Shown: positions 8,410 through 41,501 of the stretch, piece after piece
Layout: each line of letters starts with the position of its first letter
Numbering within the stretch: position 1 is the stretch's first letter
Origin: Nanobdellota archaeon
GTDB lineage: Archaea; Nanobdellota; Nanobdellia; Pacearchaeales; GW2011-AR1
Reading direction: 5' to 3'
Length of the DNA: 41,501 nucleotides
Assembly (NCBI GenBank): GCA_027858295.1
Contig: JAQICZ010000063.1
Location: forward strand, 1 to 41,501
Notes under the pieces: generated by a model
The model's database searches: none
Seen by the model: the letters and a program-made list of their open reading frames with translations, nothing else
Told to the model about the DNA's origin: nothing
Translations under genes and position numbers: made by a program

Positions 8410-8740
8410 CAAAGTATTATCCCTTGTAGGAATCAGATTTTCAATTTCACTTGAACCTTGTAAAAATAATCATAAAACATTCTACTTGTCACGAACAATT
8501 TCTGCCCGCGCCGCAGGTGATAATTTAATTGCCTTAATAGCTAAGCAACAGCGAATTAATTTTTTAAAATACATTCTTATTTTTTATCCCCTCGGACTAA
8601 AACTCCGAGACCCCTAAATTTGTTGTGAAAATCTTCTGTAGCCATCAATTAAAAACATCTCAGAGACACGAAACTCGAATAGGCAGACCAGTCTTAAAAT
8701 ATGCTTCTTCTCCAAATTTTGACCAAAAATACAATTATTT

Positions 8741-9139
8741 CTAAATCTCAACATAACTTACATAACCTGAAAAAATTGTTCGCTCCGCTCATATAAATTT
8801 TGAATTATCGCCGCTGGCAGAAGCAAATAGTGTAAATTATTTTTTTAAAATTTATGGTATTTTTCTGTTTGAAATATAATATTTGTCCCTGACGAAGTCG
8901 ATAATTAAAGTGTCTTTATTCTGATGCCTTCTCTTGTTTTCACTCTTCAGTTTTCTGAAGCTAAGTGAAAGTATGGTTTACCACGAAATCTATTGAAGGA
9001 ATAAATCCCGAAGCGATTTATGTTAGTAGAGGTACTTGTGAAACGGCGGTAGCGAAGGTCTTTTTTATCTTTAATGAGCTAATGTTGGTAAATATCAATA
9101 AACTAAACTTTTGAGTTAGTCAAAATTGGAAGAAGAACC
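8741..9139. repeat. long dispersed repeat, copy A (inverted relative to 41222-41500)
   Basis: Reverse complement of 41222-41500 with few differences plus a ~121-bp extra segment (8925-9045). Confidence 0.93.
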
Positions 9140-21618: not shown

Positions 21619-22503
21619 ATGAGAAGAAGACATAAGGTAGCCATCGGTGCATTCACAACATTGACAATAATATTTATGGTTCTAACAGTTATTGTAATGA
21701 ATAGTTTAATTATAAAACAGAATGTAGAAAACAGAAATCTACAAGAAGAAATTAGAGAGCTACAGGAACAGACAGACGGGAAAATAAACGAAGTAGCAGC
21801 AGACCTAATTAATACAAAAAACTCAATATCAGACAAATTCAATATATTAGATAAAGACCTTTCATCAACTAATAAAAAAATTGGAGAATTATCCGTAACA
21901 ACAAACAAGGACTTTTCAAGCATAATAGAACAGAGTATCCCCGCTATAACAACCGTTAGGACGCTCTCAATGCAAGGCTCTGGATTTTTCATATCAATTG
22001 ATGGATATCTCATAACAAATACTCACGTCCTTCTAAATGACATTCAAGAATTTTCAAACTTAATTCAAGTAGTTACAAGCGATAATCAAATTTATTCCGC
22101 CGAAGTAATCGGTGCCATAAAAGATTTGGATTTAACTCTCCTAAAGATAGAAGCAACATATCCATACCTAGAGCTCGCAAACTCAGACGAATTAGAAAAA
22201 GGCGAAAATGTCATCGCCATCGGTAATCCTGAAGGTTTACAACTCTCAGTAACAGATGGTATAATCTCAGCCACAAAAAGAATAGGCCTTAACAACCAAC
22301 CATATTACATTCAAACAAATACAGAACTAAATCAAGGAAACTCGGGAGGTCCACTAATTAATAAAAAAGGCCAAGTTGTTGGAATGAATAATTTCAAAAT
22401 TGCAAACAGTGAAGGCTTAGGCTTCGCACTAGAATCAAACTATATCAAGGAAGGTGTAAACCTCATAAGTCTGGAAATGTTAAATCAAACATTAATAGAA
22501 TAG
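21619..22503 (+). CDS. membrane-anchored trypsin-like serine protease (HtrA/DegP-like, S1C), no PDZ domain
   Basis: N-terminal TM plus coiled coil; GSGFFISIDGYLITNTHVL, KDLDLTLLKIE, TELNQGNSGGPLINKKGQVVGMN. Confidence 0.9.
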   Translation: MRRRHKVAIGAFTTLTIIFMVLTVIVMNSLIIKQNVENRNLQEEIRELQEQTDGKINEVAADLINTKNSISDKFNILDKDLSSTNKKIGELSVTTNKDFSSIIEQSIPAITTVRTLSMQGSGFFISIDGYLITNTHVLLNDIQEFSNLIQVVTSDNQIYSAEVIGAIKDLDLTLLKIEATYPYLELANSDELEKGENVIAIGNPEGLQLSVTDGIISATKRIGLNNQPYYIQTNTELNQGNSGGPLINKKGQVVGMNNFKIANSEGLGFALESNYIKEGVNLISLEMLNQTLIE

Positions 22504-24307: not shown

Positions 24308-25747
24308 ATGGCAAAAGTAGAAGAAAAAGGCATTCAAACAAAGAAAGCAGAAGACATGTCTAAATGGTATGAAGAAGTTTGCTTAAAATCAGAAATCGTA
24401 GAATTCTCAACAGTAAAAGGCTGCATGGTAATTAGACCAAGAGGTTATTCTATTTGGGAAAAAATAAAAGAACATTTTGAATTAACAATCAACAAACCAC
24501 TTGGAGTAAAAAACGCATATTTCCCCTTATTCATTCCAGAATCATTCTTCCACAAAGAAACTGAACACGCAGAAGGCTTTAGCCCAGAAGTTGCCTGGAT
24601 TGACAAAGAATTAACTGGTGATGGTGAAAGACTAGCAATCAGACCAACCTCAGAAACAATCATGTACGATTCCTACTCAAGATGGATTCGGTCATACAGA
24701 GACCTCCCCTTAAAGATTAATCAATGGTGTAATGTTGTAAGGTGGGAAACAAAAGCAACAAGATTATTTTTACGTTCAAGAGAATTCTTATGGCAAGAAG
24801 GTCACAACGTTTACGAAACACCAGAAGAATGTGAAACAGAAACAATCGACATAATCAAACGATACGCAGCACTATGTGAAAACCTTTTAGCTATGCCCGT
24901 TCTAGTCGGAAAAAAATCAGAAAAAGAAAAATTCGCAGGAGCAGTACATACATACACAATCGAAGGGTTCATGCCAGACGGAAAAGCCTTACAGTCAGGG
25001 ACTTCTCATAACTTAGGAGATGGTTTCGGAAAAGCCTTCGGAATATCATTCTTAGGGAAAGACGAAAAGAAACACACACCCTTCCAAAATTCATGGGGCC
25101 TTTCAACAAGACTAATCGGTGGACTAGTAATGACTCATTCTGACGACAAAGGATTAGTGCTGCCTCCAATGGTTGCAGAGAACAAACTAGTGATTATCCC
25201 ATTAATTTTCAAAAAAGATAAAGAAGCAGTTTTAGAAAAAGCAAAAGAATTAACAGACGACCTAAAAGCATTCAATCCAATCCTAGACGACTCTGAAGAA
25301 TATTCACCAGGATACAAATATGCAGAATACGAGTTACAAGGAATTCCCTTAAGAATTGAACTAGGACCTCGAGATTTAGAAAACAACCAAGTAATGATAA
25401 AAACAAGAATCGGTGAAGAAAAAATTGCAGTTCCATTCTCAGAATTAGAAAAAAGAATCCCAGAAATTTTAGAAGAAATGCAAAATGAATTATTGAGAAA
25501 AGCGAAAGAAAGAATGGACTCACAAAAAATGTCAGTTTCATCAACAGAAGGATTTGAAAAGGCAATCGAAAAATCAAAATTAATCAGAATGAACTGGTGT
25601 GGAGAACCCCCTTGTGAACTAGACATAAAAGAGAAAACAGGTGCCACAACAAGATGTACTTTGCTTGAAGAAGAAAAAGCTGAAGGCGAATGCCCATTCT
25701 GTAATAAAGAAGCAAAAGAAGTTATGTATTTTTCTAGAAGTTATTAA
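24308..25747 (+). CDS. proS: prolyl-tRNA synthetase (archaeal/eukaryotic type)
   Basis: KGCMVIRPRGYSIWEKI, RPTSETIMYDSYSRWIRSYRDLPLKINQW, LFLRSREFLWQEGHN; C-terminal Zn-type CPFCNKEAKEVMYFSRSY. Confidence 0.95.
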   Translation: MAKVEEKGIQTKKAEDMSKWYEEVCLKSEIVEFSTVKGCMVIRPRGYSIWEKIKEHFELTINKPLGVKNAYFPLFIPESFFHKETEHAEGFSPEVAWIDKELTGDGERLAIRPTSETIMYDSYSRWIRSYRDLPLKINQWCNVVRWETKATRLFLRSREFLWQEGHNVYETPEECETETIDIIKRYAALCENLLAMPVLVGKKSEKEKFAGAVHTYTIEGFMPDGKALQSGTSHNLGDGFGKAFGISFLGKDEKKHTPFQNSWGLSTRLIGGLVMTHSDDKGLVLPPMVAENKLVIIPLIFKKDKEAVLEKAKELTDDLKAFNPILDDSEEYSPGYKYAEYELQGIPLRIELGPRDLENNQVMIKTRIGEEKIAVPFSELEKRIPEILEEMQNELLRKAKERMDSQKMSVSSTEGFEKAIEKSKLIRMNWCGEPPCELDIKEKTGATTRCTLLEEEKAEGECPFCNKEAKEVMYFSRSY

Positions 25748-25750
25748 TTT

Positions 25751-25972
25751 TGGCTCTTCTTCCAATATTGACAAAAAAAGATAATCATCAAATTTAAAGA
25801 AAATATATTCGCTACCGCTCATGATTGATAGGGTGGGCAGTTGATTTAATCGAAAATCATACGAGGGCTTCTATTCTTGATGAAAATATTATTATAATTT
25901 GTAACGACTATTTATCTTACTCTGATTCTAATACAATGTTTGTCTCTGCCAGCGGCGATAATTCAACTTATC
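25751..25972. repeat. dispersed repeat, copy C1 (GGCTCTTCTTCCAATATTGAC...TTCGCTACCGCTCA...CTCTGCCAGCGGCGATAATTCAA)
   Basis: Near-duplicate at 27599-27850; shares end modules with 8741-9139 and 41222-41500. Confidence 0.9.
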
Positions 25973-26054
25973 ATTTCTGAGCGACAGCGAAGTTATTTTT
26001 TCCTTAAATGACTAAAACCAAAATATTTCTCTAGAAGCTATTAATCAAAAAAAA

Positions 26055-27494
26055 TCAAGACAGAGCAAATCGACAATCTCCTTGGTCAGTAGCCTTTTCT
26101 TTAGCATTCATAGGCTCACTCCCGATACTGGCTGTACTAAATGAAATATTAGCAGCCTCAAGATAATAATCATCTGTAAAATTTGCATAATAATCAGAAT
26201 ACTCATCTCTAAAAGTTTCATTGATTTTACAATATTCATAAGACTGCCCCATATTTTCAGAATAAATATGACAAATTCCATCTTCCTCAATAATAACTCC
26301 CATATCATATTCGCCACCAAAAGGATGAGTATAAGTGCATTTGTGAGGTTCACAAAAACGAATCTTCTCAGAAAAATTCTGAACACAATATCCAGATGAG
26401 ATTAAAGAATTCCAAGAGTCATTAAACTCACCACTCAGAATGAATTTATCATAAACATTTCCGACTTTACAGCATTCAACATCATCACCATTAAATTCGA
26501 ACAAAGAACTAATTCCTGTGCAAATTTGAGTAGAATTTATATAAATACCCTCTTCATATTCACAAAACGATTCCTTTGTATTCTCCGCAACAGTATCTTC
26601 TACACAACAAGAAATCACAGTACCATTAAAAGGAAATTCCACAGAATCATTACAAAAATGAGTTTCGTTATTTGAAAAATAAAAATAATCAACCGTACTA
26701 TTCGATTTTCCAATACAAAATTCTTTCACTGTTTCATTCACTTGTTTTTCAACCTCACACGCCCTAAGAACAGAAGGCTTATTCAAAGTTGTATTACAAC
26801 CCGCATTATCAACACAAGTCCTTGCCTTCTCCTCATCAGTACAATTACCCCAATCCCCACAAGTCCAATTTTCAACACATGTACTATTTACCACAACAGT
26901 AAAATTTTCTGGAATAGTTTCATTTACAATCGGAATCGTATAATTAATTAAAGTAACAACCCTATCCAATTTCTTCAAATAAATTTCAGGAATACCTCCG
27001 CTAATTTTTTCAAGCCTAATAATAATGTCATTAATTCCATCTGAATCCAAATCAACTTTTTTATCTTCACTTAAATTTAGAGTAACCGATACCCCATTTA
27101 TTTTAATTTTAGTATAATTAGAATAAGCCTCCTCCAAAGTGATTGTTGAGGTTTTCCCATTCAGATTTATCATAACAGACTCTCTAATAAGCTTAATTGA
27201 TTGTCCCTTCTCCAAATCATCCTCTGTTAATGACGTACCCTTATCATAAAAAAGAATAAAAAAGAAAGATCCAACAATTAAAACAAAAAGAAAGCCAACA
27301 AGCAAAATACCTGGTTTCAAAATTGGAGAAGAAGTATTACTAACCTTATTACCTCCAATAAAACTTAATGCTGATTGAACATCTTCAGGACGCCAACCAT
27401 TCTCTAAAAGATCACTCTTCAACTTTATCAAAGAAACCCCTCGATTCATCCCCTCTTGAAAATATGTAACCAGTTCCTGATTAACCATAACCAT
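26055..27494 (-). CDS. hypothetical membrane-anchored extracellular Cys-rich protein (paralog 1)
   Basis: ELVTYFQEGMNRGVSLIKLKSDLLENGW N-terminus, TM, DLDSDGINDI (Ca-binding-like), WTCGDWGNCTDEEKARTCVDNAGCNTTLNKPS. Confidence 0.8.
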   Translation of the reverse strand: MVMVNQELVTYFQEGMNRGVSLIKLKSDLLENGWRPEDVQSALSFIGGNKVSNTSSPILKPGILLVGFLFVLIVGSFFFILFYDKGTSLTEDDLEKGQSIKLIRESVMINLNGKTSTITLEEAYSNYTKIKINGVSVTLNLSEDKKVDLDSDGINDIIIRLEKISGGIPEIYLKKLDRVVTLINYTIPIVNETIPENFTVVVNSTCVENWTCGDWGNCTDEEKARTCVDNAGCNTTLNKPSVLRACEVEKQVNETVKEFCIGKSNSTVDYFYFSNNETHFCNDSVEFPFNGTVISCCVEDTVAENTKESFCEYEEGIYINSTQICTGISSLFEFNGDDVECCKVGNVYDKFILSGEFNDSWNSLISSGYCVQNFSEKIRFCEPHKCTYTHPFGGEYDMGVIIEEDGICHIYSENMGQSYEYCKINETFRDEYSDYYANFTDDYYLEAANISFSTASIGSEPMNAKEKATDQGDCRFALS

Positions 27495-27530
27495 TCAAAA
27501 AAAAAGAACTTAATAAACTTTAACATAAGA

Positions 27531-27596
27531 AAGGCGAATGTCCATTCTGCAACAAAAAGGCAAAAGAAGTTATGTATTTCTCCAGAAGCTATTAAT
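27531..27596 (+). pseudogene. displaced 3' fragment of a proS gene
   Basis: aAGGCGAATGTCCATTCTGCAACAAAAAGGCAAAAGAAGTTATGTATTTCTCCAGAAGCTATTAA reads GECPFCNKKAKEVMYFSRSY*, matching the proS C-terminus. Confidence 0.9.
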
Positions 27597-27598
27597 TT

Positions 27599-27850
27599 TG
27601 ACTCTTCTTCAATATTGACAAAAAAAAAGATAATCATTAAATTTAGAGAAAATATATTCGCTACCGCTCATGATTAATAGATGGTGCCAATGACATGACC
27701 CAAGATGGGAAGCAGGGCCTCAATTAAATTAATCTAAAGGCATACGGTTAGTGTATTTTTGATGAAAATATTATTATAATTTGTAACGACTATTTATCTT
27801 ACTCTGATTCTAATACAATGTTTGCCTCTGCCAGCGGCGATAATTCAACT
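27599..27850. repeat. dispersed repeat, copy C2
   Basis: Highly similar to 25751-25972 but with a different internal segment (27681-27755). Confidence 0.9.
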
Positions 27851-27978
27851 GATTTAATTCTTCGCGGTAGCAAAGATCTCTTTTTGTATTTAATGCTGCA
27901 ATAGCAGAACATCTTAAAGAATTAAACAATAATCTACTCAAAATTTGAATAAACTACATTTTCTAAAAACTACTATTT

Positions 27979-29445
27979 CTATATAACACTAACTGCCCCA
28001 TAACCATAATCATATTCCCAACCATCCAATGCTCCACCTATCTCATTCTCAGAAACAACACAGTCAGAAACTCCCAATTTATCATTAACAACACGACATA
28101 AATATACATAATATTCATATTTATAGTCCCCAGTTACATTAAAGCCATCAAAATTTAATTCAGAATATCCCTCATCATCAATATAAAAACCAGACAAATC
28201 TCCAATAGTAACAAAAGCCATGCTATCTGATATTTCATTATCACAATACCTCAAAGAGTCTTTAGAATAACACATCAATCGCGTAGTATTAATATTTGAT
28301 TGTATAATAGAAACAGAATAATTTCCAATAGGATATTCATCAATAGAATAATTGTCCTTAAAGATATTTACTATAATTTCTGAGTCCACTGATTCCCCAT
28401 CCAAAAGAGTATTGTTAACCACAGCACTATTATTCTCCACAACATACCCTTCCTTACAACAAGAAATCATACTTCCATTAAAAGGGAACAATGTAGAATT
28501 ACTACAAAAATGTGTTACATTATTTTCAAAATAAGAATAATCAGTTCCGATTACAGATTTCTCAGAACAAAAGTCATCTAAATCAAACTCCAAACAACGA
28601 CCAGAACAACAATAAGGATCATATTCATCTGCATCCCAACCTTCATCACAGAAAAAACCCTCCGGCTCAAAACAAGCATCATCTTCAATAAAACAACCAT
28701 ATTCATCCGTCCCACAATTTCTACTCACAGAAGGCTTCTTCAATGTTGTATTACAACCAGCATTATCAACACAAGTTCTCACTTCTTTATTATTAGTACA
28801 ATTACTCCAGATAGTACATGCCCAATTTTCAACACAACTACCATTCAAATAAATTGTAAAATTCTCTGGAATTTTAAAATCATCAAGAGAAGAATTAGAT
28901 TCATTAACTACGTCTTTTTTTTCAAAAAGTCTCAAATAAATAGTTGGAATGCCACTTTTAATCTTATCAATACGAATTAATATATCATTAACACCATCAA
29001 AATTCAAATCTAATTTTCTCTCAGTCTTCTCAATTTTAATAACAACTCCGTTCACATTAATCCTAGCATAATTAGAATAAGTACTATCCAAAGTCAGGGT
29101 TGACACCTTCCCATCTAAATCTATTATCACAGGCTTACGAACCAATTCCACATATTTTCCAGAACTCAAATCAGACTTAGTCAAAACAAGCCCATCACTA
29201 TTGAGATTAGAAAACAAAATAACTGCACCGATTAAAACAAAAACTACAGCAACAATAATTAAAATTTTATAATCAAACTTCAAAGAATGCGTCGTCGTTT
29301 TAATCCCCGTAACATATTCATTAAAAGCATCAACAATTTCTGTTTTAGACCAACCACTATCTAAAAGATTATTCTTTAACTGAACTGAAGAAGCACCTCT
29401 ATCCATCCCCTCTTTAAAGTATCTAACCAATTCCTCATTAGCCAT
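27979..29445 (-). CDS. hypothetical membrane-anchored extracellular Cys-rich protein (paralog 2)
   Basis: Same architecture as 26055-27494: ELVRYFKEGMDRGASSVQLKNNLLDSGW, TM, LNFDGVNDI, WACTIWSNCTNNKEVRTCVDNAGCNTTLKKPS. Confidence 0.8.
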   Translation of the reverse strand: MANEELVRYFKEGMDRGASSVQLKNNLLDSGWSKTEIVDAFNEYVTGIKTTTHSLKFDYKILIIVAVVFVLIGAVILFSNLNSDGLVLTKSDLSSGKYVELVRKPVIIDLDGKVSTLTLDSTYSNYARINVNGVVIKIEKTERKLDLNFDGVNDILIRIDKIKSGIPTIYLRLFEKKDVVNESNSSLDDFKIPENFTIYLNGSCVENWACTIWSNCTNNKEVRTCVDNAGCNTTLKKPSVSRNCGTDEYGCFIEDDACFEPEGFFCDEGWDADEYDPYCCSGRCLEFDLDDFCSEKSVIGTDYSYFENNVTHFCSNSTLFPFNGSMISCCKEGYVVENNSAVVNNTLLDGESVDSEIIVNIFKDNYSIDEYPIGNYSVSIIQSNINTTRLMCYSKDSLRYCDNEISDSMAFVTIGDLSGFYIDDEGYSELNFDGFNVTGDYKYEYYVYLCRVVNDKLGVSDCVVSENEIGGALDGWEYDYGYGAVSVI

Positions 29446-29593: not shown

Positions 29594-29698
29594 CTATTCT
29601 GTTTTCAATAAAGAATTTAGTTCATCTTCCCAAGACAAAGTCTTTGACAGAAGACTCCCAAGTTCCCTTTCTACTTCTTTTCTTTCCATTTCTTCCAT
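29594..29698 (-). CDS. possible small charged protein, 34 aa (MEEMERKEVERELGSLLSKTLSWEDELNSLLKTE)
   Basis: Complete frame with ATG and TAG; amphipathic-helix-like composition; no overlapping longer ORF. Confidence 0.35.
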   Translation of the reverse strand: MEEMERKEVERELGSLLSKTLSWEDELNSLLKTE

Positions 29699-30083: not shown

Positions 30084-31118
30084 CTAACATAAAAGCTTCA
30101 AATTAGAAATAAATTTATCAAGCTCATCAACATCCAGCTGAGCGCCAACAGCCTTCTCATGCCCACCACAAGTCGCCATAGAAAATTCCTTTATTACGGA
30201 CGTTGCTTTATCACGAACACCATCACCTCGTAAAGACAGATTTACACGAACCCCTCTAATAAAAGCAACAAGAATTGTTTTATCAGGATACAAATAAGAC
30301 AATTTATTAGCAATATCCGCACTCATACTTGTTTCTCCAGAGTACCTAAAAACCAAAAGAGGTCCACCATCAAATTCTTCTTTAGCTTTACCAATATATT
30401 TCTTAAATTTAGTATCAATTTCTGCAAATCTTTTATGCATTGTGTGATTAGTACTCGTCTCTTCAAGAGCTTCGTAAGGAGTCTTTGTATCAATCAAAAA
30501 TTTAATCATCTTAATTACATTAGTAGTCCTGTCCTTTAGACCAACTCCTACCATTCGAGAAATCCTTCCAATAGAAGAATTATAAAAAATTTCAAAAGCA
30601 TCTTCTGACTCTAAACTTAAATCAGGATATTTTTTAACAAATTCCTCATAGAAAGGCATTACAAATTTATCTGCAATTGTCCCCACCACAGCTATCCATA
30701 GATCTTCTTTTCTCCTAGATATCTCATAGCATACCGCAGTAACCGGAATATTCTCCTTCTCTCCAGAATAAAGTGGATTATAATAATGAACATTATTTGG
30801 AATTGCTTCAACATCATTTTCATGATGGTCAATCCAAACAACCTTTATACCATCCTCTTCCAACTTTTCAAAGAATTCATTCAAAACTGTTGGTTGATCT
30901 AGAATAAAAACAATATCCGGATTGAATTCACCAACCCTTCTATAATAACTCATATCAAGAGGCGAAGTTTTTACAGGTATTCCATTACCACGTCCAATCA
31001 TCCGACGTAGCAATAAGTAACTACTAAGTCCATCCTGGTCATTATCAAAATAAAACAAAGGTTTTGCTGCATTTTGCAAAAGTTCTCTAACTTCTCCAAC
31101 TTCTTGTATCGTAATCAT
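30084..31118 (-). CDS. DHH/DHHA1-family phosphoesterase (RecJ-like)
   Basis: YFDNDQDGLSSYLLL, VWIDHHEND, TIADKF, GGHEKAVGAQL. Confidence 0.88.
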   Translation of the reverse strand: MITIQEVGEVRELLQNAAKPLFYFDNDQDGLSSYLLLRRMIGRGNGIPVKTSPLDMSYYRRVGEFNPDIVFILDQPTVLNEFFEKLEEDGIKVVWIDHHENDVEAIPNNVHYYNPLYSGEKENIPVTAVCYEISRRKEDLWIAVVGTIADKFVMPFYEEFVKKYPDLSLESEDAFEIFYNSSIGRISRMVGVGLKDRTTNVIKMIKFLIDTKTPYEALEETSTNHTMHKRFAEIDTKFKKYIGKAKEEFDGGPLLVFRYSGETSMSADIANKLSYLYPDKTILVAFIRGVRVNLSLRGDGVRDKATSVIKEFSMATCGGHEKAVGAQLDVDELDKFISNLKLLC

Positions 31119-32040: not shown

Positions 32041-33141
32041 TCAAATTCTTCGACCCAAAGAAACCTTTTGTCTCAAGTTATACATCTCCTCTTGGAAGAA
32101 TGCAACCATAGCCTCAGATTCCAAAACATCCAACAGATTGGCCCTACTTGCACTCAAAAGAACATTAAAATCATTAAAATTACCAATCAACAAATCAACA
32201 TACCGATCCAAAAGATTAGTCTTGCCCAAAATTCTAATCCCCTTCGGAGAAATACTTTTATCATGCAACTCCTCAAAAACCAATCTTGAAATATTCATGG
32301 GCTCAAGCAAGAAATCAAAATCCATAGTCTCCAAAACATTCAGCGCATGAGCATGATTCGCCCCAAAATAATCTCTCAAAATCAAAGACTCTTCCTTCTC
32401 AATACTCCCAGTTAATTCTTTCAATCTCATTTTAACAATTGATCCCTCACGACCCAACTCAATCAAATATCTTTTAACAACCTCAGAAATCCTCTTGATA
32501 ATTTCAACCCTTTGAAGAACTAAACAAACATCTTTAATTGCCGCACTTTTCTCAAATTCCCTAGAATTCAAAGTGTCGAGCAAATCGTCAAAAACATCTC
32601 TCTGCTTTTCAAGAATTTGCAAAGTTTCAGAGGCACGCCTTAAAATCTCACTACTTATCTCAAGCAAATGATATTGATCCCCATAATAAACTGAAATCTT
32701 ATTCTTTCTTTCTGAAACCGCAATAACCAAAGTCTTTGCCTGCTTTGCAGTCCTCTCTCCAGATTTATGTCGAGTTCCAGTTTCCCTTGACGGAACTTCA
32801 ATGTTTGGAAACAACATAGAATTTGCCCTAATAATCCTCTTCCCATCCTTAGATAAAATAATTGCTCCATCCATTTTCGCAAGCTCTACAAGCCTCTGCG
32901 CACTAAACTTCACATCAATCTTAAACCCACCTTCTATAATAGGAAGAGTAAAATCATTCTCAAAAACAACCAAAGCCCCCATCTTAGCACGCAATAAATC
33001 ATCAAGAGCAATTCGGAGGCTCGTACCAGGAGAAACCATTCTAAGAATATCTTCAAAATCTTTCTCCATTTTCCTACCATCATCAGGATTACTAGAAAAA
33101 CTCACAAACATTTCCTCTGTATTTTCATTTTCCTCTGCCAT
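32041..33141 (-). CDS. disA: DisA-like diadenylate cyclase (c-di-AMP synthase), bacterial DisA architecture
   Basis: MVSPGTSLRIALDDLLRAKMGALVVF, ELAKMDGAIILSKDGKRIIRANSMLFPN, SRETGTRHKSGERTAKQAKTLVIAVSERKNKISVYYG; linker and degenerate HhH C-terminus. Confidence 0.88.
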   Translation of the reverse strand: MAEENENTEEMFVSFSSNPDDGRKMEKDFEDILRMVSPGTSLRIALDDLLRAKMGALVVFENDFTLPIIEGGFKIDVKFSAQRLVELAKMDGAIILSKDGKRIIRANSMLFPNIEVPSRETGTRHKSGERTAKQAKTLVIAVSERKNKISVYYGDQYHLLEISSEILRRASETLQILEKQRDVFDDLLDTLNSREFEKSAAIKDVCLVLQRVEIIKRISEVVKRYLIELGREGSIVKMRLKELTGSIEKEESLILRDYFGANHAHALNVLETMDFDFLLEPMNISRLVFEELHDKSISPKGIRILGKTNLLDRYVDLLIGNFNDFNVLLSASRANLLDVLESEAMVAFFQEEMYNLRQKVSLGRRI

Positions 33142-41221: not shown

Positions 41222-41500
41222 GGCTCTTCTCCCAATTTTGACTAACTCAAAAGTTTAATTCATTGATATTTAGCAACATTAGCTCATTAAAGACAAAAAA
41301 AGACCTTCGCTACCGCTCAGAATAAAGACACTTTAATTATCGACTCCGTCAGGGGCAAATATTATATTTCAAACAGAAAAACACCATCAATTTTAAAAAA
41401 ATAATTTACACTATTTGCCTCTGCCAGCGGCGATAATTCAAAATTTATATGAGCGGAGCGAACAATTTTTTCAGGTTATGTAAGTTATGTTGAGATTTAG
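41222..41500. repeat. long dispersed repeat, copy B (inverted relative to 8741-9139)
   Basis: See copy A. Confidence 0.93.
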
Positions 41501-41501
41501 A

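Follow-up and report, generated by a model that had tools for sequence, protein, structure and literature searches.

When an aminoacyl-tRNA synthetase gene is replaced as a whole, phylogenetic trees usually show only the finished state. At icd of Escherichia coli, integration of e14 or phage 21 brings in a gene end that preserves the protein and differs mostly at silent sites, and the displaced end remains. Archaeal mobile elements insert into the 3′ ends of protein-coding genes, and tandem insertions occur too, as described for thaumarchaeal iMGEs and tandem casposons (PMC6563490).

The locus analyzed here surrounds the 3′ end of proS, the gene for prolyl-tRNA synthetase (ProRS), in a DPANN-type archaeon. 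As in icd, the protein is kept, the differences are mostly silent and a displaced end is left behind, but no phage genes or integrase were found at the proS locus. It shares with the thaumarchaeal iMGEs and tandem casposons (PMC6563490) a restored gene end, further end copies downstream and a serial arrangement; unlike in those elements, no integrase or casposase was recognized, there appears to be no fixed core, and homologous DNA follows two of the copies. Xenologous gene displacement in situ offers a third comparison, with an essential aminoacyl-tRNA synthetase, retained flanks and three distant ProRS types in the same slot of the genus, whereas the window repeats only the proS 3′ end and its ends are closely related and of the same ProRS type. 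We tentatively propose, at a little short of even confidence, that the locus may preserve an exchange at proS that was never completed, in which DNA came in from a relative and patchy gene conversion followed.

Results

Gene organization around proS

The window, that is, the whole stretch of 41,501 nt analyzed, is contig 40 in an assembly of 64 contigs and 1.35 Mb (G000), roughly double the genome size of its congeners (0.6–0.8 Mb). The nearest relatives of its proS come from MAGs labelled Nanoarchaeota, Woesearchaeota, Pacearchaeota or just archaeon. From left to right, the locus holds a trypsin-like protease gene (21619–22503, plus strand; Pfam Trypsin_2), which by synteny is the conserved upstream neighbor of proS; the intact proS (P0001; 24308–25747, plus strand; Pfam tRNA-synt_2b, HGTP_anticodon and ProRS-C_1); MITE-like element A; a 22-nt proS end; P0002 on the minus strand; a 66-nt proS end; MITE-like element B; P0003, a 34-aa ORF and a DHH-family gene, all on the minus strand. 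The DHH-family gene (30084–31118), the conserved convergent neighbor of proS, was recognized by synteny and by Pfam DHH/DHHA1 matches just below the curated cut-offs. The 34-aa ORF (29594–29698), translated as MEEMERKEVERELGSLLSKTLSWEDELNSLLKTE, has similar sequences in several congeners. A DisA-type diadenylate cyclase with a DisA-linker domain lies at 32041–33141; this arrangement, present here in a DPANN-type archaeon, is bacterial in style. Across the window, third-position C/(C + T) is near 0.5 in most plus-strand genes (0.25 in one) and 0.03–0.12 in minus-strand genes.

Three copies of the proS 3′ end

By direct repeat and alignment, the 3′ end of the intact proS (tail 1; 25683–25748, plus strand) recurs downstream as tail 3 (27531–27596, plus strand), which is in frame with the proS end (KGECPFCNKKAKEVMYFSRSY, then stop) and repeats about the last 22 codons, corresponding to about codons 458–480. 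The two differ at 8 of 66 nt; all differences are transitions and seven fall at third codon positions. The initial annotation had listed six synonymous C/T third-position changes plus GAA/AAG, and exactly these were recovered. It had not included a third proS end, the 22-nt tail 2 (26024–26045, plus strand). The 22-nt end of proS, TATTTYTCTAGAAGYTATTAAT, had three matches in the window, at 25727, 27575 and 26024, where 0.01 was expected in shuffles; with up to 3 mismatches, the whole 1.35-Mb genome contained exactly three, all at the proS locus, and the control none. These 22 nt are common to all three tails; of the two displaced copies, only tail 3 continues to match for another 44 nt in the 5′ direction. 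The displaced copies begin at different proS codons, 458 for tail 3 and about 474 for tail 2. Within the overlap, tails 2 and 3 both read TTC and AGC where the intact end differs, and TCT is common to tails 1 and 2.

A fourth tail at about 27957–27977 was rejected, since its best score ranked only 160 among 8,290 windows. Tail 2 was also rejected as a target-site duplication: complete MITE copies have duplications of 8 bp rather than 22, and no comparably long repeats flank the other MITE copies. In the congener G001, the contig (L082, JAHJRS010000003) stops 6 nt before the start position of the displaced fragment; this is probably a coincidence, because an assembler overlap would carry the contig into the repeat.

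Elements A and B belong to a MITE-like family

The repeat scaffold of the initial annotation turns out to be a MITE-like element whose terminal inverted repeats are 21 bp long. Dispersed copies share the terminal inverted repeats GGCTCTTCTCCCAATTTTGAC, and a search with the terminal repeat CTCTTCTCCCAATTTTGAC, allowing up to 3 mismatches, gave 45 genome matches against 1 for the reversed control. Complete copies are flanked by 8-bp A+T-rich target duplications, for example TAAAATAT at window positions 8703–9139, ATTTTTAT (C6), ATAATTTT (C32) and ATATATTT (C45). In these duplications, in their shared terminal inverted repeats and in their length of about 280–560 bp, the copies resemble MITEs; unlike in MITEs, no partner transposase was found when the IS1595 type was tested, that type being absent from the genome. 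The copies themselves are too short to encode a transposase. Copies also occur at 8703–9139 and 41222–41501 of the window, and many contigs, including the window, end in or next to one. A literature search on MITEs in DPANN returned no paper.

Element A (25752–26023, plus strand) retains an intact left terminal inverted repeat, matched at 25754, and lacks its right end, where tail 2 is found instead; element B (27600–27957, plus strand) is nearly full length by alignment of the copies. No 8-bp target duplications are visible at these two decayed copies. Both begin at the same base, right after the TTAATTTT that follows tails 1 and 3, and this identical start indicates that A and B most likely descend from one insertion. 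The blocks 25748–25831 and 25876–25969 are 95–97% identical between A and B (4% divergence over 178 sites), and the parts 25832–25875 and 25970–26022 are only 48% and 60% identical.

The membrane-protein genes and the junction between the units

P0002 (26055–27494, minus strand; 479 aa) is a membrane-anchored, Cys-rich protein without a known family in profile and database comparisons. P0003 (27979–29445, minus strand; 488 aa) is its paralogue or homologue: the two align over about 310 aa, with unrelated C-termini. Over the first 260 alignment columns, they show 44% amino acid identity, a dS of 0.82 and a dN of 0.47, and 16 of 38 fourfold sites differ. The locus had been read as two units whose cargo is far more diverged than the intergenic DNA. 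Two homologous units are indeed present, with blocks that are 95–97% identical, but the intergenic DNA is not uniform, other parts of it being only 48–60% identical. Neither a donor nor a relative with a single unit carrying the P0002/P0003 gene was found among 143 family genomes, in which long matches to either protein reach at most about 31% identity. A viral origin of P0002 was rejected after no relative was found in viral contigs and no significant match in PHROG, NCBIfam, Pfam or PDB.

The units meet at a single junction (27524–27531), where homology between the regions upstream of P0002 and P0003 stops (27523/29480) and proS homology starts at codon 458 (27531). The genome is fragmentary (64 contigs), MITE copies frequently lie at contig ends and the two units look like alleles, as would be expected if an assembly had joined in tandem the versions of the locus from two co-occurring strains. 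A false join of this sort should fall within the MITE; the observed junction instead connects sequences without an evident shared stretch of k-mer length, and no Ns are present, so an artefact of this kind is very unlikely.

Site-specific integration at the proS 3′ end had also been suggested; in such a reading, a mobile element would integrate there by an integrase or a casposase, once or in tandem, displacing the old end each time. Three gene ends in a row do look like a tandem array of att or target sites, integration into the 3′ ends of protein-coding genes is known for archaeal elements (PMC6563490), and tyrosine recombinases are encoded elsewhere in the genome. Against this, neither between the proS ends nor in the main ORFs of the window did Pfam scans recognize an integrase, Cas1 or transposase, the inserts hold only P0002 and MITEs, and no P0002 relatives were found in viral contigs. 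The displaced copies also begin at two different codons rather than at one crossover point, and the DNA to the right of tails 1 and 3 is homologous (a MITE and a gene after both ends), not element versus chromosome. Integration of this type is therefore unsupported and appears highly improbable here.

Tail 3 most likely diverged inside a functional proS

Between tails 1 and 3, dN is 0.02 and dS is about 2, that is, saturated, and 6 of 11 synonymous pyrimidine sites differ. Over the whole of proS, synonymous pyrimidine sites differ at 29 of 62 against L088 and at 40 of 81 against G004 (47–49%); L088 is the closest proS relative, with a contig that ends inside proS at residue 315. Silent sites in G004 match tail 1 in some cases and tail 3 in others and are uninformative at this saturation. 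Changes between the tails affected 7 of 22 third positions versus 1 of 44 first plus second positions (P value = 0.0014), in a comparison that spans 66 nt and 8 differences and was chosen, like the others, after the data were seen. A single change in 44 first and second positions has a P value below 1 × 10−5 at 30% neutral divergence. The one amino acid difference is Lys in tail 3, the commonest residue at that column (18 of 51 relatives), and Glu in the intact proS (6 of 51); because its Lys is the commonest residue in relatives, tail 3 does not look like a product of decay. The claim of the initial annotation that tail 3 is more than a decaying duplicate, with divergence of the coding type, is thus upheld, and tail 3 most likely evolved inside a functional proS, judging from its codon pattern. 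It is probably without function today.

An ordinary local duplication of the proS end, MITE and gene, followed by gene conversion, would have the simplest topology, with one junction at 27524–27531, and would fit MITE blocks that are only 4% diverged. The synonymous pattern would then reflect chance together with change in the intact copy, to which the TTC and AGC shared by tails 2 and 3 against the intact end may point. However, the tail synonymous sites (6 of 11) far exceed the adjacent MITE blocks (7 of 178) in divergence (P value = 1 × 10−5), and in an unselected fragment as old as the split between the genes the codon pattern should have disappeared, which is not so in tail 3 (1 of 44 first and second positions changed). 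A conservative test that assumed duplication with later selection acting only on the intact copy gave the excess at third positions a P value of about 0.035, from the tail data only. Simple duplication is accordingly disfavored, and we regard it as unlikely.

The main rival of the exchange is a tandem duplication of a region that included a complete proS, after which both genes would long have been functional until the second was deleted up to codon 458. Such a loss would account for the coding-type divergence of the tail, for tails and genes that have diverged to a similar depth and for the two units having their MITE at the same base. Against it, no displaced proS end was found among about 50 proS loci of relatives and no 5′ proS remnant was found in G000, and we consider it rather unlikely.

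An empty site and repeated replacement of proS in the genus

In G004 (L081 and L027, MAG CG_2015-01t_29_42), proS is followed by 354 bp with the same small ORF and then by DHH. In the readable congeners proS and DHH are likewise convergent and mostly lie about 15 to 390 bp apart; in G002 (L051) the gap after proS measures 1.2 kb and contains an unrelated gene. The region from the proS stop to about 29590 is an insertion in the lineage of the window, because the congeners have an empty site; the ancestral downstream DNA resumes at the 34-aa ORF, a similar sequence of which directly follows proS in G004.

The trypsin–proS–DHH order is kept in the readable congeners while ProRS falls into three distant groups, consisting of G000, G001 and G004; of G005 and G007; and of the rest, which are 34–38% identical to the window. 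The slot loci listed for the three types were L081, L041, L043, L044, L047, L048, L050, L051 and L055. A tree uniting the ProRS of the genus as one clade was rejected (p-AU = 9 × 10−43), whereas the DHH proteins of nine of the same genomes formed one clade with 100/100 support. In the DHH tree, G004 pairs with G007 (92/90), though G007 carries another ProRS type. With flanks conserved and the gene tree in conflict with that of the neighboring DHH, repeated in-place replacement of proS within the genus is documented. This makes incoming proS DNA credible at the present locus, though tail 3 is of the window's own ProRS type.

Discussion

Neither one recent nor one old duplication can easily explain the unequal divergence across this locus. 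One recent duplication seems unlikely because saturated synonymous sites adjoin non-coding DNA of 4% divergence, and one old duplication because 43 of 44 first and second positions are unchanged in an unselected fragment. Since neither single duplication fits, what remains is that the tails would come from separate functional genes and that the MITE blocks were converted later.

Under the exchange reading, the ancestral order would have been trypsin, proS, small ORF and DHH. The MITE and the membrane-protein gene would have arrived after proS in the lineage of the window, and homologous DNA of a related lineage with the same layout (proS end, MITE, gene) would then have recombined into the locus. 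One version of the 3′ end would then complete the intact proS and the other would be stranded between the two genes, with the single junction at 27524–27531. Later gene conversion may have homogenized the two MITE blocks, and the genes, the middles of the MITEs and the tails would keep the older divergence.

We infer the foreign origin of one tail, the direction of replacement and the order of events. The 4% divergence of the MITE blocks requires a separate conversion step under the exchange reading, and a single exchange event leaves tail 2 unexplained. Incoming DNA from a relative gives the best account of the arrangement, but a former second complete proS would produce the same pattern. As for direction, codon endings in the last 40 codons of the intact proS are 4 C to 13 T, against about 0.5 in the whole gene; as a sign of foreign origin this leaning is suggestive only, as other stretches vary too. 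Together with the Lys and Glu frequencies, it weakly hints that the displaced end may be the original proS end.

A broader reading, which we regard as improbable, is that the trypsin–proS–DHH slot may be a standing exchange site in DPANN-type archaea, where proS segments would come in time and again through the 3′ end, with displaced ends left behind, the window being one half-finished exchange that carries membrane-protein cargo. Overall, the locus is a real relic; the initial annotation was right that it holds more than a decaying duplicate, and the origin it proposed is plausible.

A second gain is a MITE family that has recently spread in a DPANN-type archaeon with a genome about twice the size of its congeners'. 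A locus with a restored and a displaced gene end beside a conserved synteny anchor could show how replacements of aminoacyl-tRNA synthetase genes start, and population sequencing could directly test such an onset of replacement at the proS locus.
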